A stretch of DNA of 64,000 nucleotides from Candidatus Bathyarchaeia archaeon. Lineage in GTDB: Archaea > Thermoproteota > Bathyarchaeia > Bathyarchaeales > Bathycorpusculaceae. Every line of letters begins with the position of its first letter. The first letter of the stretch is position 1. Shown here one piece after another: positions 38,849 to 52,159 of this stretch. The stretch spans positions 1 through 64,000 of the forward strand of contig JASEET010000006.1 in NCBI GenBank assembly GCA_030019335.1. The letters run 5' to 3'. The notes beneath the pieces were generated by a model. The model did no database searches and was not told the DNA's origin. It saw only the letters and a program-made list of their open reading frames with translations. The translations under genes and the position numbers were made by a program.

Positions 38849-39130
38849 CTAAAACAAAAGTTTCATTCTGTGCGGCCGTCGTCTAGTCTGGACTAGGACA
38901 TCAGCCTGCCACGCTGACGACCCGGGTTCAAATCCCGGCGGCCGCACCAGTCTTGGCTGTTGAGACGTGCTTATGCACGTCGATCTACGATTGCTTTGTT
39001 GTTCAGCGCTTTGTAGGCGTTGGATTTCTTGTTCTAAGCATTTTTCACATGCCCTGCTGATGTTTAACCCCAGTTCTCTTGCTGTTTGATGGATTTTTGG
39101 GTCGATGCGTATGGTGACGAGTTTTCTCAT
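38849..39130 (-). CDS. CcdA-like antitoxin
   Basis: A frame of 93 residues whose first 45 residues are CcdA/ribbon-helix-helix-like (MRKLVTIRIDPKIHQTARELG, then ISRACEKCLEQEI). The C-terminal part reads through the tRNA-Gly gene in antisense, producing a meaningless tail after SQQPRLVRPPG. So the antitoxin was probably longer or shorter originally, and its present 3' end is set by the attachment site. No CcdB-like toxin lies next to it. Confidence 0.55.
   Translation of the reverse strand: MRKLVTIRIDPKIHQTARELGLNISRACEKCLEQEIQRLQSAEQQSNRRSTCISTSQQPRLVRPPGFEPGSSAWQADVLVQTRRRPHRMKLLF
38872..38949 (+). tRNA. tRNA-Gly (GCC), intact, integration site
   Basis: Acceptor GCGGCCG/CGGCCGC, T-arm CCGGG/CCCGG and anticodon loop CTGCCAC (anticodon GCC). 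CCA is encoded. The 3' end TCCCGGCGGCCGCACCA (38933-38949) is duplicated exactly at 47281-47297, marking it as the attachment site of the adjacent element. No intron. Confidence 0.95.
38933..38949 (+). repeat. attachment site, tRNA-Gly end copy
   Basis: TCCCGGCGGCCGCACCA within the tRNA-Gly T-arm, acceptor and CCA. It is identical to 47281-47297. The two copies delimit the integrated element. Confidence 0.75.
38964..38981. repeat. perfect hairpin next to the att site
   Basis: GACGTGC-TTAT-GCACGTC is a perfect 7-base stem with a 4-base loop, 15 bases inside the element from the tRNA end. It may be part of a recombinase site or a terminator for the CcdA-like gene. Confidence 0.45.
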
Positions 39131-39363
39131 TTTCTTTTTCCTCTACTGTATTTACAATTGTATTTACAGCTTGTCGCTATAAAAAGTCAACTTAAGTCCA
39201 TGCGTGAATTTCCATCAAAATCGGCCTTGGAGTTCACATGAATGCTGACCAATTCATTAAGCAACGAAAACGCCTCTTTTTTCTAATTGAGACTCAAAAT
39301 ATGGTTGAAATTAATTTTATAGAACTTAGTTTCGTAAGCCAAAGGCATGCATGCACACCAATA

Positions 39364-39777
39364 CTACTTGCGAATGACCATTTTCTCTTTTTCAAATTCG
39401 CTTGCCTCGCTTATTCTTTTAATAAATACTTTAAAACCACCTAATTCACTGGGTATTTCCTGAACGTTAGTCATGTTATCTTCTACATATACAGCAATTC
39501 CAATAATGTAATTACTACTCTCGTTCCGTGCAATTCCCGCTCCTACAACGCCGTCAATGCTCAACAAGTAATCTTCATTTTTAAAGAGTATACCAACTAT
39601 CTTTGTATCCGTTGGTATAAATCCGATAACATTAAAACATACAAATGCAACCAACAATACTACAAAAATTCCAATTATAATCAAAAATTTCTTATTTACT
39701 TTTGTCCCCTCCGTGTAATCACATTCCATGCACTCCGGATGGACCATATCGTTCGCGCGCGCTCCATTCCTTTCCAC
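39364..39777 (-). CDS. membrane-anchored hypothetical protein
   Basis: A protein of up to 137 residues with one transmembrane helix (FLIIIGIFVVLLVAFVCFNVIGF) and an extracellular-type domain (TKIVGILFKNEDYLLSIDGV, GIAVYVEDNMTNVQEIPSEL). A GGAGGGG sequence lies in the frame just before the hydrophobic segment, which suggests the true start is close to the helix, but no canonical start codon is at the right distance. No family is recognised. Confidence 0.45.
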   Translation of the reverse strand: MERNGARANDMVHPECMECDYTEGTKVNKKFLIIIGIFVVLLVAFVCFNVIGFIPTDTKIVGILFKNEDYLLSIDGVVGAGIARNESSNYIIGIAVYVEDNMTNVQEIPSELGGFKVFIKRISEASEFEKEKMVIRK

Positions 39778-39908
39778 TCTTCCGGCACACTAATTAAAGC
39801 CTCAATGAATAATAAAACTTTTCAGTAATATTTTTCTATATGGACCGAGCACAAGACGCATCAATATGTTCCGAATCCTGCAAGGTCAGATGTGTCGAAG
39901 GTAAACAT

Positions 39909-40547
39909 TTAATGAAAGTATATCTGAGCCTCACGTTTCTTGCAAAATAGGTAAACTTTTGTTTGTGTTAGGAAGCTGAGGATGCAGAGCATTTTAGCCA
40001 GTTTCTTGAGCGGTGCTTTGTCGACGCAGTTGTTGAACTTTTCTTTTGGCATGTAGGCTTTGTGGCTGGACCATAAACGTTTGCGGTATATGCCCACTGC
40101 CTTAGAAAGGTCCTTGAGGAGTGTTTTCACTTGACTAACCGATTGAAGAGCCCTCAGCTGGTGCATGTTGTATTTTTCCGAAGAAAGGAAGACCGGGTTA
40201 AAGCCTAACTTTCTCAATTTTTCTACGGCGTCAAGAACCGCTGGGTTTGGCTTGCTTTCAAGGATCTTCTCCATTCCTGCTTTCTTTGCGAAGGGGTTGT
40301 ACTTAGCCATGACGGCGATCATTTCGACGTATGGCTTGTCGACCAGGGGCAGGGTTTCTTTGACGAGTTTGGTGCCGAGGCCTATGGTGCGGTATTTTGG
40401 GTGGACCACCATGTGGGCGATGGTGGTTAAGTCTTGATTCAGCTCTTGGATGGTTAATACCCTGCCGAAGGCCAAATGGTTCACGGTTACCATGGTCACT
40501 AAAGCTTTCATTAAGCATGGATGGAAAAAGGATCCACGCACCAGCAA
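39909..40547 (-). pseudogene. GNAT-domain fragment, 5' truncated
   Basis: The frame encodes a GNAT acetyltransferase core: HMVVHPKYRTIGLGTKLVKE is the acetyl-CoA loop, then VEMIAVMAKYNPFAKKAGM. It continues into a helical C-terminal region (MHQLRALQSVSQVKTLLKDL). The N-terminal part is missing, and the reading frame begins within an overlapping plus-strand gene. In archaea such domains often sit at the end of larger ATPase-acetyltransferase proteins. The broken 5' end marks a rearrangement near 40520. Confidence 0.6.
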
Positions 40548-40686
40548 GATACTAGATCGCTTCTGTGAATGGGGCTACCTAGAGAAACACTACGCTGGCA
40601 AGAGACCAGAATACCAGCTACGCATAACGCCAGAAGAAGCTCGAGAAAAAGGCCTGCTGAAAACCGCAGAGAAGGTTGAAGCCTAA
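40450..40686 (+). CDS. winged-helix-like fragment
   Basis: The frame gives 78 residues. The convincing part is residues 25-78: KKDPRTSKILDRFCEWGYLEKHYAGKR, ITPEEAREKGLL, like the C-terminal half of a small winged helix. The N-terminal 20 residues overlap the GNAT fragment on the other strand and look non-native. It abuts the DUF5131 gene (ATG at the stop). It is probably a 5'-truncated gene. Confidence 0.4.
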   Translation: MVNTLPKAKWFTVTMVTKAFIKHGWKKDPRTSKILDRFCEWGYLEKHYAGKRPEYQLRITPEEAREKGLLKTAEKVEA

Positions 40687-41350
40687 TGAATAGGACAAAG
40701 ATTGAGCGGACAGATTATACTTGGAACCCGATAACAGGCTGTAAGCATGGTTGCTGGTATTGCTACGCCAAGAAACTTACTCAGCGATTCAAGAAGATTT
40801 TTCCTAATGGTTTTGAGCCTACTTTCTATCCAGAACGCTTGAAAGAACCTTGGGAATTGAAGAAACCTTCAAAGATTTCGTGTGTTCTATTGCGGATTTG
40901 TTCGCACCTTGGACACCTATAGTATGGCGCGATGCTGTTTTGGATTCTATCGTAAGATGCCCAGTCAAACACATTTTCCAGCTTTTAACCAAGAACCCTG
41001 AGCGGATCCCAAATATTCATTTTCCAGATAATGTTTGGGTTGGCACGACAGTTACAGGCGAAAACAAATTCCAGCTTGGATTCGACGACACCGTTCATAT
41101 AAACCACATTAAAAAAGTGAAGGCAAAAACAAGGTTTGTTTCTTTTGAGCCTCTGCTTGGAAGAATAAAGCCAGACCTAAAGGGGATTCAATGGGTCATC
41201 ATCGGCAAGTTAACCGGCTCCAAACGAGTGAAGTTAGATCCGCTTTGGGTTGATGTAATCTTCGGCGAAGCACAAGCATTAGATATCCCAGTGTTCATGA
41301 AGAACAACCTTGGCTTCGAAAATCCCATTCAAGAATTTCCTATGGAATAA
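40686..41350 (+). pseudogene. DUF5131/Gp37-Gp68 family protein, single frameshift
   Basis: The start encodes TDYTWNPITGCKHGCWYCYAK, the radical-SAM-like Cys cluster of this phage-associated family, and RLKEPWELKKPSKI. The frame then breaks at the T-run at 40876-40878. In the next frame the sequence continues FVCSIADLFAPWTP, HIFQLLTKNPERI, SFEPLLG and VIIGKLTG. Restoring one T joins them perfectly. Either an assembly error or a real lesion explains it. The function of the family is unknown; association with phages is established. Confidence 0.75.
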
Positions 41351-41484
41351 TCTTCTATTGCCTCGGCGCCCCTCAAAGGTAAAAAATGGTACAAAGTAAA
41401 ATTTTACTCTAGTAAGGTGCGGTCTCGACTATCCCCATTCTCAAGCATATTAATGCTGGCAACTATCCTGCCAAGATCGCTAGG

Positions 41485-42233
41485 ATGTTAGGACTAAGCA
41501 AACAACATGTCCACTACTACATTAAGAAGATGCGTGAAGCCGGGTTAATCAAGCGATCTAAGATAAAATGGCCGGCTTTCTACTCGCTTACGCCGAGAGG
41601 TAAAAAACTTCTCACTAGATATGAGAGGGTGGCGCCTGGGTTTTTGTTTCGTCTGCATAACGTGGTGTTTAAGTATGCGTTGAAAGGGCTTGCCGCAGGT
41701 CCAGCTAGCTGGACTAAAATCAGGAAGCGTAATTGGACTGCTGAGTATGGGAAAGAGTTGGGGGTTCGGGTTGAGAAGACTAGTCGCAGCGTTCTTGTTT
41801 ACTGTGATGTTGTTGAGGGTTACAATCCTGATGAGCTTCGCGTTTAGCGAAGGATCAGGCGGATCGGGTGGCTGCTACTCTCAGGCTTAAGTATGGTTGG
41901 CAGCTTGGTGAGGGGAAGCAGTGTCGTAAAGCTCATTTTGGCGTTTACGATCCTGTCGCAGCCTTAGTTTCTAAATATGGTCAGATCAGCGATGACATAG
42001 CTAACATTGACCAAAGTGAGACGTATGGCGAGATCGATTGGTTAACACCAGAAGCCGCTAAAAACTATCTCCTGATGCCTGGGTATGTACGTAGCATTCT
42101 AGCCGCGCTAAACGAGTTTGCCCAGGGAATGCGCGATCACCGAGCTCTGATCTCTGAGATTCAAGTTATGGCGAAGGAAACTCGAGAGCTCGTTGAGGAG
42201 TTAAGGCGTCAAAACAAAAGAGGTGATAGTTAA
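41485..42233 (+). pseudogene. winged-helix element protein, split by a frameshift
   Basis: The first part (41485-41847) has a winged helix (LGLSKQHVHYYIKKMREAGLIKR), GKKLLTRYE and ends NPDELRV. Adding one T in the T-run at 41843-41845 continues into LAKDQADRVAATLRLKYGWQL, PEAAKNYLLMPGYV and a C-terminal helix (41868-42233). The true N-terminus may extend upstream of 41485 (KHINAGNYPAKIARM reads in frame), but no canonical start is available. It is an element-type DNA-binding protein. Confidence 0.65.
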
Positions 42234-42436
42234 TGCTTACATTCAAACAGAAGTTGATCACGCACAAAGCTCAAAATGGGGTTCTTTTTTCTCTCATTTT
42301 TGGGAAGATTTCAGTAAAATAAGTTTGTTTTCGTCTTCCTTGAGACAGCATGTTTTAGATGTTGTTTTACCTAGGGCATACAGTACCTCTTTTGTGAGTT
42401 TTGGATGTTACGCGCAACAATTTGGTGCATTTTGTG

Positions 42437-42613
42437 ATGGAAACTTCTAAAAAACCAGCACGAAAAGAGTCTCAAGCCGCTAAAAAACGTCGTTCTCAAG
42501 TTGATAAAGTAGGTCGGCGAAAGTGGATTATTCAATTGCTTCATCGTTTAGACGGGAAAATTGATCGGATTGACCGTAGGACCCGTTTCTTAGCAGCTGG
42601 TTTACGTGAATAG
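42437..42613 (+). CDS. small basic protein of the element
   Basis: A frame of 58 residues from ATG 42437: METSKKPARKESQAAKKRRS, then QVDKVGRRKWIIQLLHRLDGKI and RRTRFLAAGL. Very basic, with a short amphipathic helix. It is followed 28 bases later by a winged-helix gene, as expected for paired element regulators. The function is unknown. Confidence 0.4.
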   Translation: METSKKPARKESQAAKKRRSQVDKVGRRKWIIQLLHRLDGKIDRIDRRTRFLAAGLRE

Positions 42614-42640
42614 CTAAACCTTAGCTCTGATTATGTCACC

Positions 42641-42907
42641 ATGATTGCGTGTGAGGATGAGTTAGACGTGAAGATCCTGTGGGCTCTTCAGGGTGTTGGC
42701 ATGTCCACTACGGAGTTAGCGAAAGAGCTAGATATAGATCGTTGGACCGCGTTGCGCAGGATCCAACGAATGAATAAGCGTTTTCATCACGAACTCAATA
42801 GGCCTATCGCAGAGAAACGTGGATATAACTGGGTTTTAACAGGGTCCATACGAAGGATATGGGGCACCACGGCTGAAGAAATAGAAACTGAAGAGGAAGA
42901 GTTTTAA
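42641..42907 (+). CDS. winged-helix transcription regulator of the element
   Basis: An 88-residue protein with a helix-turn-helix (ELDVKILWALQGVGMSTTELAKELDIDRWTALRRIQRM) followed by an acidic tail (TEEEEF). The compact form matches small archaeal plasmid or virus regulators. ATG 42641. No target is identifiable. Confidence 0.6.
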   Translation: MIACEDELDVKILWALQGVGMSTTELAKELDIDRWTALRRIQRMNKRFHHELNRPIAEKRGYNWVLTGSIRRIWGTTAEEIETEEEEF

Positions 42908-43061
42908 TTAGTCGGTGAAGTGACCGCGTGGTTAGATAGAGCCGAGTATAGGTTTCATAAAAAAGTGCCGGGCTAGATGTATATCCCGGTTTAATTCTTC
43001 GTATCAGTTTGCTGTGATTTGAGAAACTTGGAAATATTTTGTTTGGGCATAAAGCTGAGTT

Positions 43062-44300
43062 ATGTTTCTCTTTCGTTTGATGTTGTTTTCCTTGGCGTCC
43101 GTGATGGTGGTTTATCTCCTTCGGCATTATGTTTTCACGGCAATTGCGTTGTGTTTTGGGAGGAGTTCTGATAATATATTGGAGGGTGATTGTAAACCGG
43201 TTGTTTCGGTTGTCATCCCAGCTCGAGACGAGGAGAGGGTTGTTGGTCGGCTTCTTCGTAGGATTACCGAGTTTACATATCCTAAGGAAAAGCTACGTGT
43301 TGTCGTGGTTGAGGATGGTTCTACTGACGATACGGGGAAGATTTTTGATGAGTTTGCAGAGCGGTATAGCTTCATTAAGGTGTTGCATCGACAGAGAAGT
43401 GAGGCAAAGGGAAAGCCAGTTGCGTTGAATGAAGCGCTGAGACATGTTGCGGGCGAATTTGTCTATTTCTTTGATGCTGATTATGTTCCAGAACGGAATA
43501 TTCTGGAAAAGTTGAACTCTGCCTTTTTGGATCCTAATGTTGGAGCGGTTCAGGGAAGAATCAAGGTTTTGAATGAGGGTAAGCTGGTTTCTAGGGTTGT
43601 TTCTTTGGAGCGTATTGGTGGCTACAGGGTTGATCAGTTGGCGCGGGATATTCTTGGGCTTATTCCTCAATTTGGCGGGACGGTTGGTGGAGTGCGGTGT
43701 AGCTTGCTTCAATTGTTGGGTGGATTTGACGCGAACATACTTGCCGAGGACACTGACCTAACCTTTCGGGTTTATCTGGCTGGGTTTAAAATTCGGTATG
43801 TCTTAAGCGCCGAGTCCTATGAAGAAGCCGTGGAAGGTTGGCGACACTATTGGCGTCAACGGTATCGTTGGTCCAGAGGTCATATGCAGTGCGCCTTTAA
43901 ACATTTATGGCCGCTGATAAAAAGCAGGAATTTGACGTTAAGGGAAAAGTTGGATGGTTTTCTCCTCTTAAACGTCTATTTCGTTCCTGTTCTTGTTGGT
44001 TTTGGCTGGTTGCTCGGTGCCTTAAGCTTTCTTCTTGGTTATGGTTTATGGGCTGGCTACACGGCTTTGCTCGTCACGTTGATATACCTGGCTTCGGGAA
44101 ATATCGCTCCCCTTTCTGAAGTGATTGTTGGGGCAATTTTAGATAAGCGCGCACGATTGTGTCGATACATTCCCTTCCTGCTATTCGCTTTCTTTCTTAA
44201 TGTACTCATTTGCACCAAAGCCCTCATTGACCTTCTCATTGCAAAAATATGTGGAAGACCATCTGCCAAATGGGATAAAACCGTGCATAAAGGAATGTAA
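43062..44300 (+). CDS. family 2 glycosyltransferase, membrane processive type
   Basis: A 412-residue membrane GT2. N-terminal transmembrane segment (residues 4-25), then VSVVIPARDEE, VVEDGSTDDTG (D1), FFDADY (D2), AEDTDLTFR (D3) and QRYRWSRGHMQ (QxxRW) motifs, with four or more C-terminal transmembrane helices. This is the BcsA/hyaluronan-synthase type, which polymerises and exports a polysaccharide, or transfers sugars to lipids. It is intact inside the otherwise decayed element, so it may be a beneficial cargo gene. Confidence 0.88.
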   Translation: MFLFRLMLFSLASVMVVYLLRHYVFTAIALCFGRSSDNILEGDCKPVVSVVIPARDEERVVGRLLRRITEFTYPKEKLRVVVVEDGSTDDTGKIFDEFAERYSFIKVLHRQRSEAKGKPVALNEALRHVAGEFVYFFDADYVPERNILEKLNSAFLDPNVGAVQGRIKVLNEGKLVSRVVSLERIGGYRVDQLARDILGLIPQFGGTVGGVRCSLLQLLGGFDANILAEDTDLTFRVYLAGFKIRYVLSAESYEEAVEGWRHYWRQRYRWSRGHMQCAFKHLWPLIKSRNLTLREKLDGFLLLNVYFVPVLVGFGWLLGALSFLLGYGLWAGYTALLVTLIYLASGNIAPLSEVIVGAILDKRARLCRYIPFLLFAFFLNVLICTKALIDLLIAKICGRPSAKWDKTVHKGM

Positions 44301-44357
44301 AGTTTAGTTTGATAGTAAAATAGCGGGGGTTAGATCGTGCCGCGCGCAATTATAGAA

Positions 44358-44388
44358 TCTCTTAACCTAAACCATAAGGGTTAAGAGA
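44358..44388. repeat. 10-bp inverted repeat before a short frame
   Basis: TCTCTTAACC and GGTTAAGAGA are perfectly complementary around an 11-base loop, with the second arm touching the ATG at 44388. It could be an operator or a transcription terminator of the glycosyltransferase. Confidence 0.5.
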
Positions 44389-44639
44389 TGGACGGAGCTT
44401 ACGTTAGGGTGGTTAAGGGTATGGGTGAGAAGGCTGAACACTACTCGAATTTTATGCGGAAGTACTTTAAAGAAGCTGAAGCGTTCTTGACTAACCTACA
44501 TACAAAGAGAAGTTTTCAAATCGAGAGAGGACAATTCATAGTTTCCATGAGTTCATTCGTCTTATCCCAAGAAAAACATAACAACTCGCAGAATAAATCA
44601 TCCAACTACTTGCAACGAATAGAGCCCAGCCAACTTTGA
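44388..44639 (+). CDS. hypothetical protein after the inverted repeat
   Basis: An 83-residue frame (MDGAYVRVVKGMGEKAEHYS, then FMRKYFKEAEAFLTNLH) with a low-complexity C-terminus rich in Ser, Asn and Gln. No family is recognised and no ribosome-binding site is obvious, so it may be non-coding. Confidence 0.25.
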   Translation: MDGAYVRVVKGMGEKAEHYSNFMRKYFKEAEAFLTNLHTKRSFQIERGQFIVSMSSFVLSQEKHNNSQNKSSNYLQRIEPSQL

Positions 44640-44917
44640 GGTTGAACTATTCACTTAGTAACTAACGGAGGTGAAATGGACAACATTATAAGATAAGAGT
44701 AAACCTTTAACGCTTAGTTTCCTCGCTCCCACACGCTATGGATTATTTTCGTTTCGTGTATTTTTCTGTGATGAGAAGCTCTTAAGAAGCTGGCTCTGAG
44801 TGTATTTATGCTACATATTTTGACTTCATCAAATCTATATGGCTTCGGTAAATCAAGATTTAAACATCGAAACATCAAAGATGAGATAAAATTGCCACTA
44901 TTAAAAAGGTTCTTGAC

Positions 44918-45130
44918 GTGCTTCAGGCAAATCTCAGAGGGAGAAAAAGGAAAAAAGAGCCCCACGTTAAACCAATAGAGAAGGATAAAGATCCTTCGGG
45001 GTGTCCTCACCATTTTGGATACTTGGCGAACCGTCCCAAAAATGATCCTGTCCCCCAAGAATGCCTAACTTGCCCAAAAATATTGGAATGCATGCGCACG
45101 AGCTTTGAAGAAGTTGAGGTTAAGCCCTGA
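44918..45130 (+). CDS. small zinc-binding protein of unknown function
   Basis: A 70-residue protein with GCPHHFGYLANRPKNDPVPQECLTCPKILEC, a Cys/His arrangement typical of a widespread small archaeal family. It starts at GTG 44918; the reading frame continues upstream (IKKVLDV) without a canonical start. The acidic tail is VEVKP. It is probably genuine; the role is unknown. Confidence 0.55.
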   Translation: MLQANLRGRKRKKEPHVKPIEKDKDPSGCPHHFGYLANRPKNDPVPQECLTCPKILECMRTSFEEVEVKP

Positions 45131-45197
45131 AGAGAGGGTTGTATATTTGAAAATATAATAAAGTCTCCAACACCACACGCGCTTTAATTTTTAAATA

Positions 45198-45229
45198 AAT
45201 TTGAACCCTAAAACCAATTAATTTAAAAA
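45198..45229 (+). repeat. 32-bp direct repeat, copy 1
   Basis: AATTTGAACCCTAAAACCAA plus TTAATTTAAAAA, matching 46883-46914 at 30 of 32 positions. The two copies flank the PIN, membrane and retropepsin genes. It contains AATTAATT, which is self-complementary. Confidence 0.6.
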
Positions 45230-45338
45230 TTAAAAGCGAGGGCGCGATGATAGGATTTGCGTGTATAGCGGATAATGCTGACTTGTCTAAGTTTTTTAAT
45301 CTTGTAACTTAAATAGTGTTGGAGTGGTGTGACGAGGT

Positions 45339-45839
45339 GTGAGTGTGTCAGAGGTTCTTAAGGTTTACTTGGACCTAGACGTTTTGAGTTATATGGCTGG
45401 GATTCCGAAGGATGAGTTGTGGAAGGTTCCCGTAGCTAGGCGTGTAGTGGACTTGGCTAAGAATGGCGAGATTGTGATTGTGATGTCTATGGCTGCCGTT
45501 GAAACCTCGTTTTCTAGGGCGCGTTTGCCAAAAGAAAGGCGAAGACGTTATCTATGTTTATTAACCGAATGCCTGGAAAGCGTGCCTTATTAAGTTGTGG
45601 AACCAAAACCTGAAAAGATCGAGGAGCTGGCGGACCTCTATTTTAAGGTGGCTGGTGTCGGCAAATATGAAAACGCCATACACATCGCTGTTTCCGTTTT
45701 GTTAGAAGTTGATTGCTTCCTCACATTGGATGAGGAGCACATTCTAAAAGAAAGCGTTAAGAGAAAAGTTCAAATTCTAAATGCTGAAAGAGGCCTAAAG
45801 ACGCCTATTTTTCTAAAGTCGGAAGAATTTAAGCCTTGA
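45339..45839 (+). pseudogene. PIN-domain nuclease interrupted by a stop codon
   Basis: One frame, GTG 45339 to 45839, with a single TAA at 45591-45593. The first part holds the PIN Asp (YLDLDVLSYMAGIP) and Glu (VETSFSRARLP). The second part has AIHIAVSVLLEVDCFLTLDEEH with the second Asp set. Removing the stop gives a complete PIN toxin or RNase. It is inactivated by a point change or a base error. PIN genes are usually toxin halves of TA pairs; the antitoxin is not seen beside it. Confidence 0.75.
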
Positions 45840-45972
45840 GAGCTTTTGCCCTTCTTTTATGATATTGTTGCAGTGCCTGCAGTAGCTCCTCTTTAGAAGC
45901 CGCCTCAATCGCTGTGTTAATCTCACTCCAAGTCTCTGCCTTCAAGGGTTTAACGATGGTTTTCTTACCCAA
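45829..45972 (-). CDS. 47-residue hypothetical protein, possible antitoxin
   Basis: A short frame from TTG 45972: MGKKTIVKPLKAETWSEINT, then a helical AIEAASKEELLQALQQYHKRRAKALKA. It is convergent with and slightly overlaps the PIN gene end. Size and composition fit a small antitoxin, but this is a guess. Confidence 0.35.
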   Translation of the reverse strand: MGKKTIVKPLKAETWSEINTAIEAASKEELLQALQQYHKRRAKALKA

Positions 45973-46061
45973 ATCTTAACCCTTCATAAAATAGAAAATT
46001 AACTCTTATTAACATATAGCCTGAGGAAATGTTGCTGGATGGTTCGAGGCGAATCTTAGAC

Positions 46062-46313
46062 TTAGGTTTGTTCGGAGATTGGTTCAGTATATTTTAAGTA
46101 TCTCCATATGAATCCGAAGAAGGATAAGGCAAAGCTTGCCATCATGAAATTGTCTAGGGTAAACCAGCTGGGGAGATTTCTGTCCACCGGCCAGTCTCCG
46201 GACCATGTTTGGGTTATGTGAATAACCAATATTCCGTATCCTACAATAATTAGGCCGTAGATGATCAAAGCCTCAGCAATTGAAATGAACAGTTTGCGAA
46301 CATTAATTCTCAT
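46062..46313 (-). CDS. small two-helix membrane protein
   Basis: A protein of 83 residues from ATG 46313, with GGGGAT upstream. Two transmembrane segments: LIIYGLIIVGYGILVIHIT and MMASFALSFFGFIW. A polar loop (GDWPVDRNLPSW) lies between them. No family is recognised. Confidence 0.5.
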   Translation of the reverse strand: MRINVRKLFISIAEALIIYGLIIVGYGILVIHITQTWSGDWPVDRNLPSWFTLDNFMMASFALSFFGFIWRYLKYTEPISEQT

Positions 46314-46470
46314 GTTCCTATCCCCTTTGGCTTTCACATTTTAATCTGAAAGACATGTTAATTGTATAATTCTACTTATGGAAATTATAGTTTTTCCAAA
46401 TGGGGTAATCATTACTGAGTAACGCTAAAGATATAAGTTGTGCTTTGGCATTTTAGGTTGAAGCTGGTGG

Positions 46471-46833
46471 TTGAGCCTGGGCTACACTTATGTGGATCTG
46501 GTCGTCAGAGGTAGGGTTTCGAGGGATGTTAGAGCCTTAGTGGATACTGGTTCGGCTTACATGGTTTTGGATTCTAAGACTATTTCTGAGGTTGGGCTTC
46601 ATGAAACGCCTTTTGAAGTGGAGTTGACTCTTGCGGACAGGAGGAAGGCTAAGGCAAGGCTTTATTTGGCTGAGGTGGAGGCTGAGGGTAGGACGGGGCC
46701 CGTTTTTGTAGCGGAGTTGGATGTGCCCACGCCTATACTTGGAACATACGCTCTTGAAACCTTGGGTTTAAAGCCAAATCCGGTTACTGGTAAGCTGGAG
46801 GTTGTGGGACCAGAAGGAGGATACCTGCTCTAA
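46471..46833 (+). CDS. retropepsin-like aspartic protease
   Basis: A 120-residue protein with the catalytic VDTGSAYMVL motif (Asp-Thr-Gly) near residue 26 and a later ILGTYALETLGL, the psi-loop region of clan AA proteases. One active site per chain means it dimerises. It starts at TTG 46471. Prokaryotic members act in regulation or spore protein processing; here the role is unknown, likely element-linked. Confidence 0.75.
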   Translation: MSLGYTYVDLVVRGRVSRDVRALVDTGSAYMVLDSKTISEVGLHETPFEVELTLADRRKAKARLYLAEVEAEGRTGPVFVAELDVPTPILGTYALETLGLKPNPVTGKLEVVGPEGGYLL

Positions 46834-46882
46834 CCCTGAAAAGGGAAATGGCCAGAAACGAGAGTTAACACAATTTTAAGCG

Positions 46883-46914
46883 AATTTGAACGCCAAAACC
46901 AATTAATTTAAAAA
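46883..46914 (+). repeat. 32-bp direct repeat, copy 2
   Basis: It matches 45198-45229 except at two positions (AACGCC in place of AACCCT). It lies just downstream of the retropepsin gene. Confidence 0.6.
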
Positions 46915-46948
46915 CCTGCGTTGGCTCTCGCTTATTCGGTCATGCGCC

Positions 46949-47250
46949 TTGAAGTTTTCAGAAATCATTGATTCGTTAAATTTTGGGGACCTAATCACAG
47001 TTGAGTGGCTTGACGCCAGTGAAGCTGCTCAGGACTATCCATAAGACCCAAAACACAGATATCAAAAATCGAAGCGTTAAAGGAGATCATCAGGGCATGG
47101 GGCCTAAACCCCGAAGAAATACTCACAACAGAAGCCATGTCCATACCTCACCGAACCATCGTAAGCCCTGAAGAACTCGAGAACAAACAAATAAAGATTC
47201 TATGCAACGCCTTAAAAGCAGAAATGAAGAAAGAGCTAAGACCGACATGA
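46949..47250 (+). pseudogene. decayed gene at the element end
   Basis: Two fragments in different frames. At 46949-47044 a TTG-started stretch reads FSEIIDSLNFGDLITVEWLD and stops. From about 47040 to 47250 another frame reads ISKIEALKEIIRAWGLNPEE, SIPHRTIVSPEELE, ALKAEMKKELRPT. Neither is complete. It probably reflects deletion at the element's right end, just before the att copy. Confidence 0.4.
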
Positions 47251-47280
47251 TAGTACACATTCACCTTCCAGAGAAGTAAG

Positions 47281-47297
47281 TCCCGGCGGCCGCACCA
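47281..47297 (+). repeat. attachment site, distal copy
   Basis: TCCCGGCGGCCGCACCA, identical to the tRNA-Gly 3' end. It is not part of a tRNA here; the sequence upstream does not fold as one. It marks the right boundary of the element. The following 250 bases up to hisS contain no gene. Confidence 0.75.
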
Positions 47298-47556
47298 ACA
47301 AATTTTAAGAAAGAAGTTTGAAACAGGTTTATCGCCTATATGCCTAATTGATGAACATTTGTGGTTTTCTGTGCGAGCTGCTGAGAATAGAATCCTCTAT
47401 GGTTTTTATGTATCACCGTTATTTGGAGCTAAATATGTTCTTTTTGTTAAGTGAAAGCGGAACTTGCTGGGTTTGGTGAGGAAATGTGTAGTCAAGAGTT
47501 TGCCTGGTAAGAAGCAGAGAGAAATTTAGTATGTAAAAAACAGGTTTACGTTTTTT

Positions 47557-48852
47557 TTACAATTTGTTGCCTTTTATCGTTTCTATTATATTTTCAATTT
47601 TCACCGTTTTTTGTTCTCTTTTCCTTAAATTGCGAATCACAACCGCGCCGTTCTTTAGTTCTTTCTCTCCCACAATTATCGCATAGTCTATGTTTCTTCT
47701 GTCAGCATCTTCCAAAGCCTTACTCATCTTCCGCCCCATCACCTCAATCTCAACTGGTATGCCTGCTTCCCTAAGCATCCGCGAAATTTTTAACGCTTCC
47801 CGATTTAGCTCTTCTTTGACGGGAATAATCATAACCCTTTTTTCCTCCTCTATTCTCAGCGAAGTTTTCTGTTTCTGCATTGCCATCATTATCCTATCTA
47901 TTCCATGGGCAACCCCTACTGCTGGTGTAGGTTCGCCTCCAAACAATTCAATAAGCCTATCGTATCTTCCGCCGCCACCCAACGATATATCCATCTCTGG
48001 AACGTACACCTCAAAAATCATTCCAGTATAATATTCAAGTCCCCTTGCAAAGCCAGCCTCAACAATCATATCAATCTTTTCTCCAGTTTCTGAAACAAGT
48101 TTAAGAATCTCGCGAAGATTCCCTACAGCGTCAACAGCCCTTTCATAACCTTCAACCTGCTGCTCCATTGTCTTCAAAATCTGAGAGACTTTACTGCCTT
48201 TTGTTTCCATCAATTTTTTAAGGGTTGCCAAGCACTTAGATGTGCCAGCATCTTCAACAAGCTTAAGAGTAGCCTCATACTGTTTTTTGTCCATTAACTG
48301 CATGATTTCGTTTTGAACTTGTTCTTCTACGTTTTCTTGGCTTAATATCCCCCTCAAAACCCCAACATGCCCAACCTTAAAAACACAATTTTTCAAACCC
48401 ACAGACTTCATCAAACTATTCGTTAACATTATTATTTCAGCATCCCCTTCAGGTTTACTCGAACCCATCAATTCATAATTTGACTGCCAGAACTCTCTGA
48501 AACGTCCCTTCTGGGGTTCGTCGTATCGGTAGAGACTTCCCACACAAAACAACCGCAAAGGCTTGGGTTCATTTCTCAAAGTGGTTGCAACAAGTCTTGC
48601 CACAGAAGCGGTGAACTCGGGCCTCAAAGCAACCTTGCGTCCCCCTAAGTCTTTGAAGGCGTACATTCGGGAACGAACTTCTTCGCCAGCCTTTGCAGCT
48701 AAAAGTTCATATGATTCTACAACCGGCGTTATTATCTCCTTGTATCCATAAAGTTGAGCTACTCTCCTAGCTTTGCCTTCAATGTATTTCATCATTTTAG
48801 CTCCTTCGGGCAGAAAATCCCTCATTCCACGAGCTGTTCTAAAAATAGTCAT
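47557..48852 (-). CDS. hisS: histidyl-tRNA synthetase
   Basis: A 431-residue class II synthetase. Motif 1 region RGMRDFLPEGA, motif 2 FRPEFTASVARL/FREFWQSNYE, HisA block GLEYYTGMIFEVY and motif 3 TPAVGVAHGIDRIMMA are all present, followed by the anticodon-binding domain. It charges tRNA-His. ATG 48852. It borders the element's right end and is followed by endA on the same strand. Confidence 0.95.
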   Translation of the reverse strand: MTIFRTARGMRDFLPEGAKMMKYIEGKARRVAQLYGYKEIITPVVESYELLAAKAGEEVRSRMYAFKDLGGRKVALRPEFTASVARLVATTLRNEPKPLRLFCVGSLYRYDEPQKGRFREFWQSNYELMGSSKPEGDAEIIMLTNSLMKSVGLKNCVFKVGHVGVLRGILSQENVEEQVQNEIMQLMDKKQYEATLKLVEDAGTSKCLATLKKLMETKGSKVSQILKTMEQQVEGYERAVDAVGNLREILKLVSETGEKIDMIVEAGFARGLEYYTGMIFEVYVPEMDISLGGGGRYDRLIELFGGEPTPAVGVAHGIDRIMMAMQKQKTSLRIEEEKRVMIIPVKEELNREALKISRMLREAGIPVEIEVMGRKMSKALEDADRRNIDYAIIVGEKELKNGAVVIRNLRKREQKTVKIENIIETIKGNKL

Positions 48853-52066: not shown

Positions 52067-52159
52067 TGGCGGGTCCGCGGGGATTTGAACCCCGGATCTC
52101 CGGCTTAGAAGGCCGACGCGCTTTTTGGGACTATGCCATCCAAGCTGCGCCACGGACCC
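52067..52159 (-). tRNA. tRNA-Arg (TCT) with a 15-nt D-loop intron
   Basis: The minus strand has acceptor GGGTCCG/CGGACCC, D-stem GCGC/GCGC, anticodon loop with TCT, T-arm CCGGG..., and encoded CCA. The D-loop is expanded. A bulge-helix-bulge fits (TTGG with CCAA, bulges ATG and AAA), giving an intron at 52123-52137 and a mature D-loop AGCTTGGATA, matching standard tRNA-Arg. Confidence 0.85.

Follow-up and report, generated by a model that had tools for sequence, protein, structure and literature searches.

A decayed tailed-virus provirus beside tRNA-Gly in a Bathyarchaeia archaeon, with two apparent ends that probably come from different loci

The window analysed here is a stretch of 64,000 nucleotides (contig JASEET010000006.1, or C66) from the metagenome-assembled genome of a Candidatus Bathyarchaeia archaeon (GCA_030019335.1, or G000; 73 contigs). 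Between the gene for tRNA-Gly(GCC) and hisS, the interval 38950-47280 of this window holds a largely decayed integrated element which, judging from its sequence, is the relic of a tailed-virus provirus, rather than a provirus as such. An earlier note on this DNA had taken the end of the tRNA gene and a second copy of it near hisS for the left and right attachment sites (attL and attR) of one insertion. This pairing is probably wrong, as the sister genome (G031) has an intact tRNA-Gly(TCC) at hisS. The interval is better accounted for by a single provirus integration at tRNA-Gly(TCC), followed by decay, and then by a rearrangement that joined the remains to the GCC locus, an explanation to which a probability of about 0.7 is given here.

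The duplication itself is real. The 17-bp sequence TCCCGGCGGCCGCACCA is found exactly at 38933-38949 and 47281-47297, with zero occurrences expected by shuffling, so that a direct repeat matching a tRNA 3' end is present at both borders of the interval, as the earlier note had stated. The first copy forms the last 17 bases of an intact tRNA-Gly(GCC) gene (38872-38949, forward strand), whose 5' neighbours, DUF401 and a deoxyribosyltransferase-like gene, are ancestral; the second copy lies on the same strand. The last 16 bases of the repeat were found at four sites in the genome when one mismatch was allowed, all four of them exact, namely the two copies in the window, one with which tRNA-Gly(TCC) ends on contig C9, and one at C29:1594-1609, and the tRNA-Gly genes (GCC, TCC or CCC) of many relatives end in the same 16-mer. 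Because this 16-mer ends so many tRNA-Gly genes, the two identical copies alone cannot be paired as the ends of one insertion. A textbook-looking combination of a tRNA gene and an exact att duplication can thus mislead, given that common tRNA 3' ends produce identical cores at ends that may not be partners.

The uninterrupted site found in the relatives is that of tRNA-Gly(TCC) and hisS. The closest relatives, G031 and G019, have a Zn-finger gene and an intact tRNA-Gly(TCC) directly before hisS. In the genome of the window, this pair of genes is located on C9, where CTCTGGAAGCGAATACG begins immediately after the tRNA; this sequence is homologous to the left arm of an intact provirus behind the tRNA-Gly(CCC) of another genome, G048 (z = 8.0, 0 of 5000 shuffles). 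The attL that had been assigned to tRNA-Gly(GCC) is therefore called into question, since the matching left arm is found behind tRNA-Gly(TCC) instead. No left arm of the provirus was detected behind tRNA-Gly(GCC) in the comparison with that of G048 (z = 0.4), and the sites behind this gene, behind the core on the hisS side, and on C29 all gave z values of -0.8 to 0.4. The absence of an element arm behind tRNA-Gly(GCC) is the reason why the interval is not filed as a single intact insertion at that gene. The sequence behind this tRNA also has no match among the post-GCC sequences of eight relatives. An exact search of the viral contigs with the left arm returned two matches that lack the tRNA core, which were judged to be unrelated.

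The right border points to the same tRNA gene. The spacer between the second core and hisS (47298-47556) is homologous to the spacer between tRNA-Gly(TCC) and hisS in G031 (z = 5.6, 0 of 1000 shuffles), and has no homology to its counterpart in L202, in which hisS comes after tRNA-Gly(GCC) and a peptidase gene. The C9 tRNA flank and the window spacer, aligned together with the uninterrupted site of G031, reach a score of 809.5 (622 of the 732 aligned bases are identical), against 490.5 for the GCC flank and the same spacer. The left arm on C9, the alignment with the empty site, and the homology of the spacers make one integration at tRNA-Gly(TCC), which was split later, the most economical explanation, and 47281-47297 is most likely the attR of that integration, which a rearrangement has since brought to the GCC locus. 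What the earlier note had named as evidence against its own pairing, a second copy in relatives that have no element, is seen in part, in the form of a whole tRNA-Gly without the element. The spacer also holds a dispersed repeat, ATTTGGAGCTAAATATGTTCTTTTTGTTAA, at about 47385-47455, which recurs on C4, C11 and C29 and in G031; an 86-bp similarity between the spacer and C29 was rejected as flank homology because of the further copies of this repeat.

The identification of the interval as a decayed tailed-virus provirus rests on its interior fragments, which match genes of the G048 provirus and of IMG/VR contigs that bear capsid or terminase genes and share the integrase. The G048 provirus occupies about 21.1 kb at a tRNA-Gly(CCC) of a Bathyarchaeote (C1:917.9-939.0 kb) and is arranged in the order tRNA-Gly(CCC), left arm, winged-helix gene (at +229), AbiE toxin-antitoxin pair, terminase C-terminus, ABC-ATPase/GNAT gene, integrase and core, with one mismatch in the far core. 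Its winged-helix, ABC/GNAT and integrase genes all have fragmentary counterparts in the window. Two of the IMG/VR contigs have the same integrase family and share interior genes with the window: L264, in which the terminase adjoins the ABC/GNAT gene, and L267, which carries an HK97-type capsid gene.

The first of these fragments, counted from the tRNA, is the C-terminal relic of the viral ABC-ATPase/GNAT gene (39912-40574, reverse strand), recognised by its domains and by identities of 64% over 179 residues to L264 and 43% over 174 residues to the G048 provirus; it is inverted and displaced in comparison with G048 and L264, where the intact gene comes after the terminase gene. An initial view of the left side of the interval as ordinary chromosomal DNA was abandoned on account of this relic at 39.9-40.6 kb. 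Two further relics on the forward strand match two consecutive genes downstream of the L267 integrase. One is a winged-helix regulator broken by stops and a frame break (41392-42230), which is 42% and 35% identical to consecutive halves of L267:2435-3385, and 36% identical to its counterpart in G048, the first gene of that provirus. The other, in two pieces (42398-42904; 39% and 34% to L267:3532-4092), is the relic of the next viral gene, of 186 residues in L267. The winged-helix fragments of the window, used as queries against the viral contigs, gave no match.

The earlier note had recognised no integrase, and had suggested a search of 47044-47250 for its remnants. Such a remnant does exist, in the form of the C-terminus of a tyrosine integrase (47023-47250, forward strand), with about 75 of 499 residues, which shares 76% identity over 70 residues with the intact integrase of G048, a protein of 499 residues with a PF00589 (Phage_integrase) domain. 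The catalytic part is gone, and the element is thus immobile. Together with a coding density (open reading frames of at least 100 residues) of 0.54 inside the interval, compared with 0.81 and 0.95 in the flanks, this agrees with the degraded and immobile tRNA-integrated element described in the earlier note. The stop codon of the integrase lies 30 bp ahead of the core, with the same spacing in the intact G048 relative, and in both cases the gene adjoins one attachment site and is not split by the core. An SSV-type (suicidal) integrated element was rejected, since the core is outside the integrase frame and the gene is not divided into N and C parts.

The right arm of the attachment site (47248-47280, forward strand) is also present on C29, which carries a second right arm and core in a match of 68 bp, and its reverse complement matches the C9 left arm behind tRNA-Gly(TCC) in 20 of 26 columns, as an imperfect inverted repeat. 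Given this second attR-like site, at least two integrations of the provirus family have occurred in the genome. At the C29 site (L038:1560-2470), the arm holds the last integrase codons fused to a DNA-glycosylase frame, and is followed by an AbrB/PIN pair, a 32-bp 3' fragment of tRNA-Gly that lacks the CCA, and a P-type ATPase. Two further relics of the same integrase family are located on C34 (L129), where the relic ends beside tRNA-Gln, and on C73 (L107), where it lies beside the core CCCCGGGCTACC, which suggests that the family also uses tRNA-Gln. In G012 (L243, G012:C24, about 98.2-100.1 kb), another integrase gene, only distantly related, comes after tRNA-Gly(TCC), which indicates that more than one family of elements uses this site.

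In the favoured explanation, a tailed Bathyarchaeota virus would have carried a classical tyrosine integrase that recombines the final ~17 bp of tRNA-Gly genes, and the viral attachment site (attP) would have lain about 30 bp past the stop codon of the integrase gene. Integration between tRNA-Gly(TCC) and hisS would have left attL behind tRNA-Gly(TCC), now on C9, and attR ahead of hisS, at 47281-47297. After the decay of the provirus, a chromosome rearrangement, probably through recombination of tRNA-Gly genes with one another or of related proviruses, would have parted attL from attR and joined the remains to the tRNA-Gly(GCC) locus, which has the same 3' end. The breakpoint would lie somewhere between 38950 and about 41390. 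The relic genes, the integrase remnant, the layout of arms and core, and the match to the empty site are observations, and the single integration at tRNA-Gly(TCC) and the rearrangement are inferred.

Several observations weigh against this explanation. The window itself retains no structural virus gene, and no capsid or terminase gene was recognised in it by Pfam and PHROGs scans. The attL on C9 might belong to another integration, given the second attR-like site on C29, and tRNA-Gly(GCC) could have been retained rather than rejoined, since it is found upstream of hisS in several relatives. Had 3' flanks been swapped precisely at the ends of tRNA-Gly genes, the spacer before hisS would look alike with either tRNA in front. 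The genomes G031, G019 and G000 do not form one clade in the best tree, although their grouping is not rejected (p-AU 0.28). As to the reciprocal junction, the genome of the window was searched for two genes that might mark it, the helicase gene that some relatives have between the deoxyribosyltransferase gene and tRNA-Gly(GCC), and proC, which G019 has behind tRNA-Gly(GCC); only distant paralogues were recovered, and no reciprocal junction was identified as a result. The reciprocal neighbours RsmB, PUA and proC were absent from the right side of C73.

The competing explanations overlap in part with the favoured one, and their probabilities are not expected to add up to one. An exchange between two proviruses is, in fact, one form of it: proviruses at tRNA-Gly(TCC) and tRNA-Gly(GCC) would have swapped halves by recombination, with the window as one product, and C9 and C29 as parts of the other. 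The second right arm and core on C29 are consistent with this, and homologous inversion between related integrated elements has been documented in Thermococcus kodakarensis (TKV2 and TKV3; PMC8371274), but there is no left arm at GCC, C29 has no known link to C9, and the reciprocal junction was looked for in the genome and not found, so that this version can be held only tentatively. It is rather unlikely that one element was inserted at tRNA-Gly(GCC), with its attL at 38933-38949, its attR at 47281-47297 and a left arm deleted since, while the C9 arm belongs to a separate provirus that could pair with C29. Such an insertion would fit the order of tRNA, winged-helix genes, integrase and core, which is that of the intact G048 provirus, the position of tRNA-Gly(GCC) upstream of hisS in several relatives, and the presence of at least two attR-like sites of the provirus family in the genome. 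The first viral gene, however, is 2.4 kb from the tRNA, rather than 0.2 kb, with the inverted ABC/GNAT fragment in between, the comparison behind tRNA-Gly(GCC) shows no left arm (z = 0.4), and G031 has tRNA-Gly(TCC), not GCC, at hisS, with a homologous spacer.

A false join of two loci at the repeat, within C66, is improbable. The genome is a metagenome assembly in 73 contigs, and repeats did break contigs here, as shown by the 55-bp overlap of the end of C9 with C73, which sits just behind another integrase relic and points to repeats or strain variation in the assembly. The common repeat is only 17 bp long, however, below the usual assembly words, and what lies between its copies is a stretch of consistent viral genes, and not a tRNA joined directly to hisS. 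A stray tRNA fragment, present by chance and with no mobile element, would fit a 16-mer shared by many tRNA-Gly genes, but is contradicted by the integrase relic 30 bp ahead of the second copy, the arm in common with C29, and the viral gene fragments, and hardly deserves any credence.

The history of the two tRNA-Gly loci across the family provides a wider context for this rearrangement. Several relatives have, in this order, DUF401, a deoxyribosyltransferase-like gene, tRNA-Gly(GCC), other genes, RsmB, PUA and hisS. The pair formed by the Zn-finger gene and tRNA-Gly(TCC) is stable in the family, while its 3' neighbour varies, being hisS in G031 and G019, rsmH and the deoxyribosyltransferase gene in G016 and G029, rsmH and RsmB in G003, and the G6401 and EF-2 genes in G030. 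Across the family, genes that elsewhere lie 3' of tRNA-Gly(GCC) have thus repeatedly come to follow tRNA-Gly(TCC), and the comparison of gene order in 18 genomes places breakpoints at tRNA genes whose flanks have been exchanged. When the block is scored as GCC or TCC, at least six changes are counted among these genomes on the best tree, the backbone of which is poorly resolved, and the count falls to five if G031 and G019 share one event. The 3' flanks of the two genes may have been exchanged again and again through virus integrases that use the common tRNA-Gly 3' end, although this is a speculative proposal, and less likely than not. If such recurrent exchange is real, the window would preserve the fossil trace of a single exchange that was caught inside a provirus. 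The tRNA-Gly(TCC) genes of G000, G016 and G029 contain short inserts, and that of G019 (L036:17136-17414, contig C141) is interrupted beside the anticodon by an insert of ~200 nucleotides with a small frame, MVKKLNESMISRIIKLRKSKRSYKQIAKELPVAVSTA, which resembles a helix-turn-helix protein.

The remaining contents of the interval are mostly broken genes. A fragment of a CcdA-type antitoxin (38990-39130, reverse strand; PF07362, 36.7 bits against a cut-off of 22.4) has an open frame that continues into the antisense strand of the tRNA, and a DUF5131 gene (phrog_2045; 40686-41350, forward strand) is broken into two overlapping frames. These two assignments of the earlier note, like that of the winged-helix gene, are supported by profile matches, but its PIN gene (45339-45839, forward strand), which is interrupted by a stop, has no Pfam match. 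A family-2 glycosyltransferase (43062-44300, forward strand) is intact, with a paralogue on C55 (54%) and a best relative at 67%, and a small retropepsin-like aspartyl protease (46471-46833, forward strand; PF13650) has an open frame; the origin of the intact glycosyltransferase and of the small accessory genes is unsettled. On the right, hisS (47557-48852, reverse strand) represents the chromosomal flank. At 52067-52159, ARAGORN calls a tRNA-Phe(AAA), an unlikely anticodon, which is probably a miscalled intron-containing tRNA.

The element belongs with the tRNA-integrated provirus relics, which are known as a class, and its interest lies in the mismatched ends and in the recurrent exchange of tRNA-Gly flanks. 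Archaeal proviruses have been described as integrated at tRNA genes, and the tailed proviruses and viruses of Bathyarchaeia (PMC10848311, PMC11705971), like the IMG/VR contigs L264-L268, combine tailed-virus genes with a tyrosine integrase, as does the family of the window, although the window has no capsid or terminase gene left, and is likened to them by gene content rather than assigned to named families. The G048 provirus is the closest parallel, with the same integrase family, 30-bp distance from stop codon to core, tRNA-Gly core, and winged-helix and ABC/GNAT genes. Its integrase is intact, however, and both of its ends are at one tRNA locus, whereas the copy in the window is decayed, and its left arm is absent at its tRNA. 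The attachment site lies outside the integrase gene, as in the classical type II (pNOB8-type) archaeal integrases (PMC8371274), a class assigned here by anatomy alone, and the core of 17 bp compares with 40-50 bp in the pNOB8-type.

Rearrangement breakpoints at tRNA genes are also known from Thermococcus, where tRNA genes, including a tRNA-Gly pair in T. nautili, are inversion breakpoints between which the integrase IntpTN3 recombines (PMC5495485), and where inversion took place between the related integrated elements TKV2 and TKV3 of T. kodakarensis (reviewed in PMC8371274). Those inversions were demonstrated by experiment or resequencing, and involve suicidal integrases, whereas the rearrangement in the window is deduced from gene order only, and the integrase is classical. 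By analogy, a similar rearrangement linked to integrases or integrated elements may have happened here too. If the exchange of tRNA-Gly flanks is indeed recurrent and driven by virus integrases, provirus integration would go on reshaping chromosomes over long times in a group other than the Thermococcales, and with a non-suicidal integrase. The comparison also indicates tRNA-Gly as both a shared target of viruses and a recurrent point of rearrangement in Bathyarchaeota.

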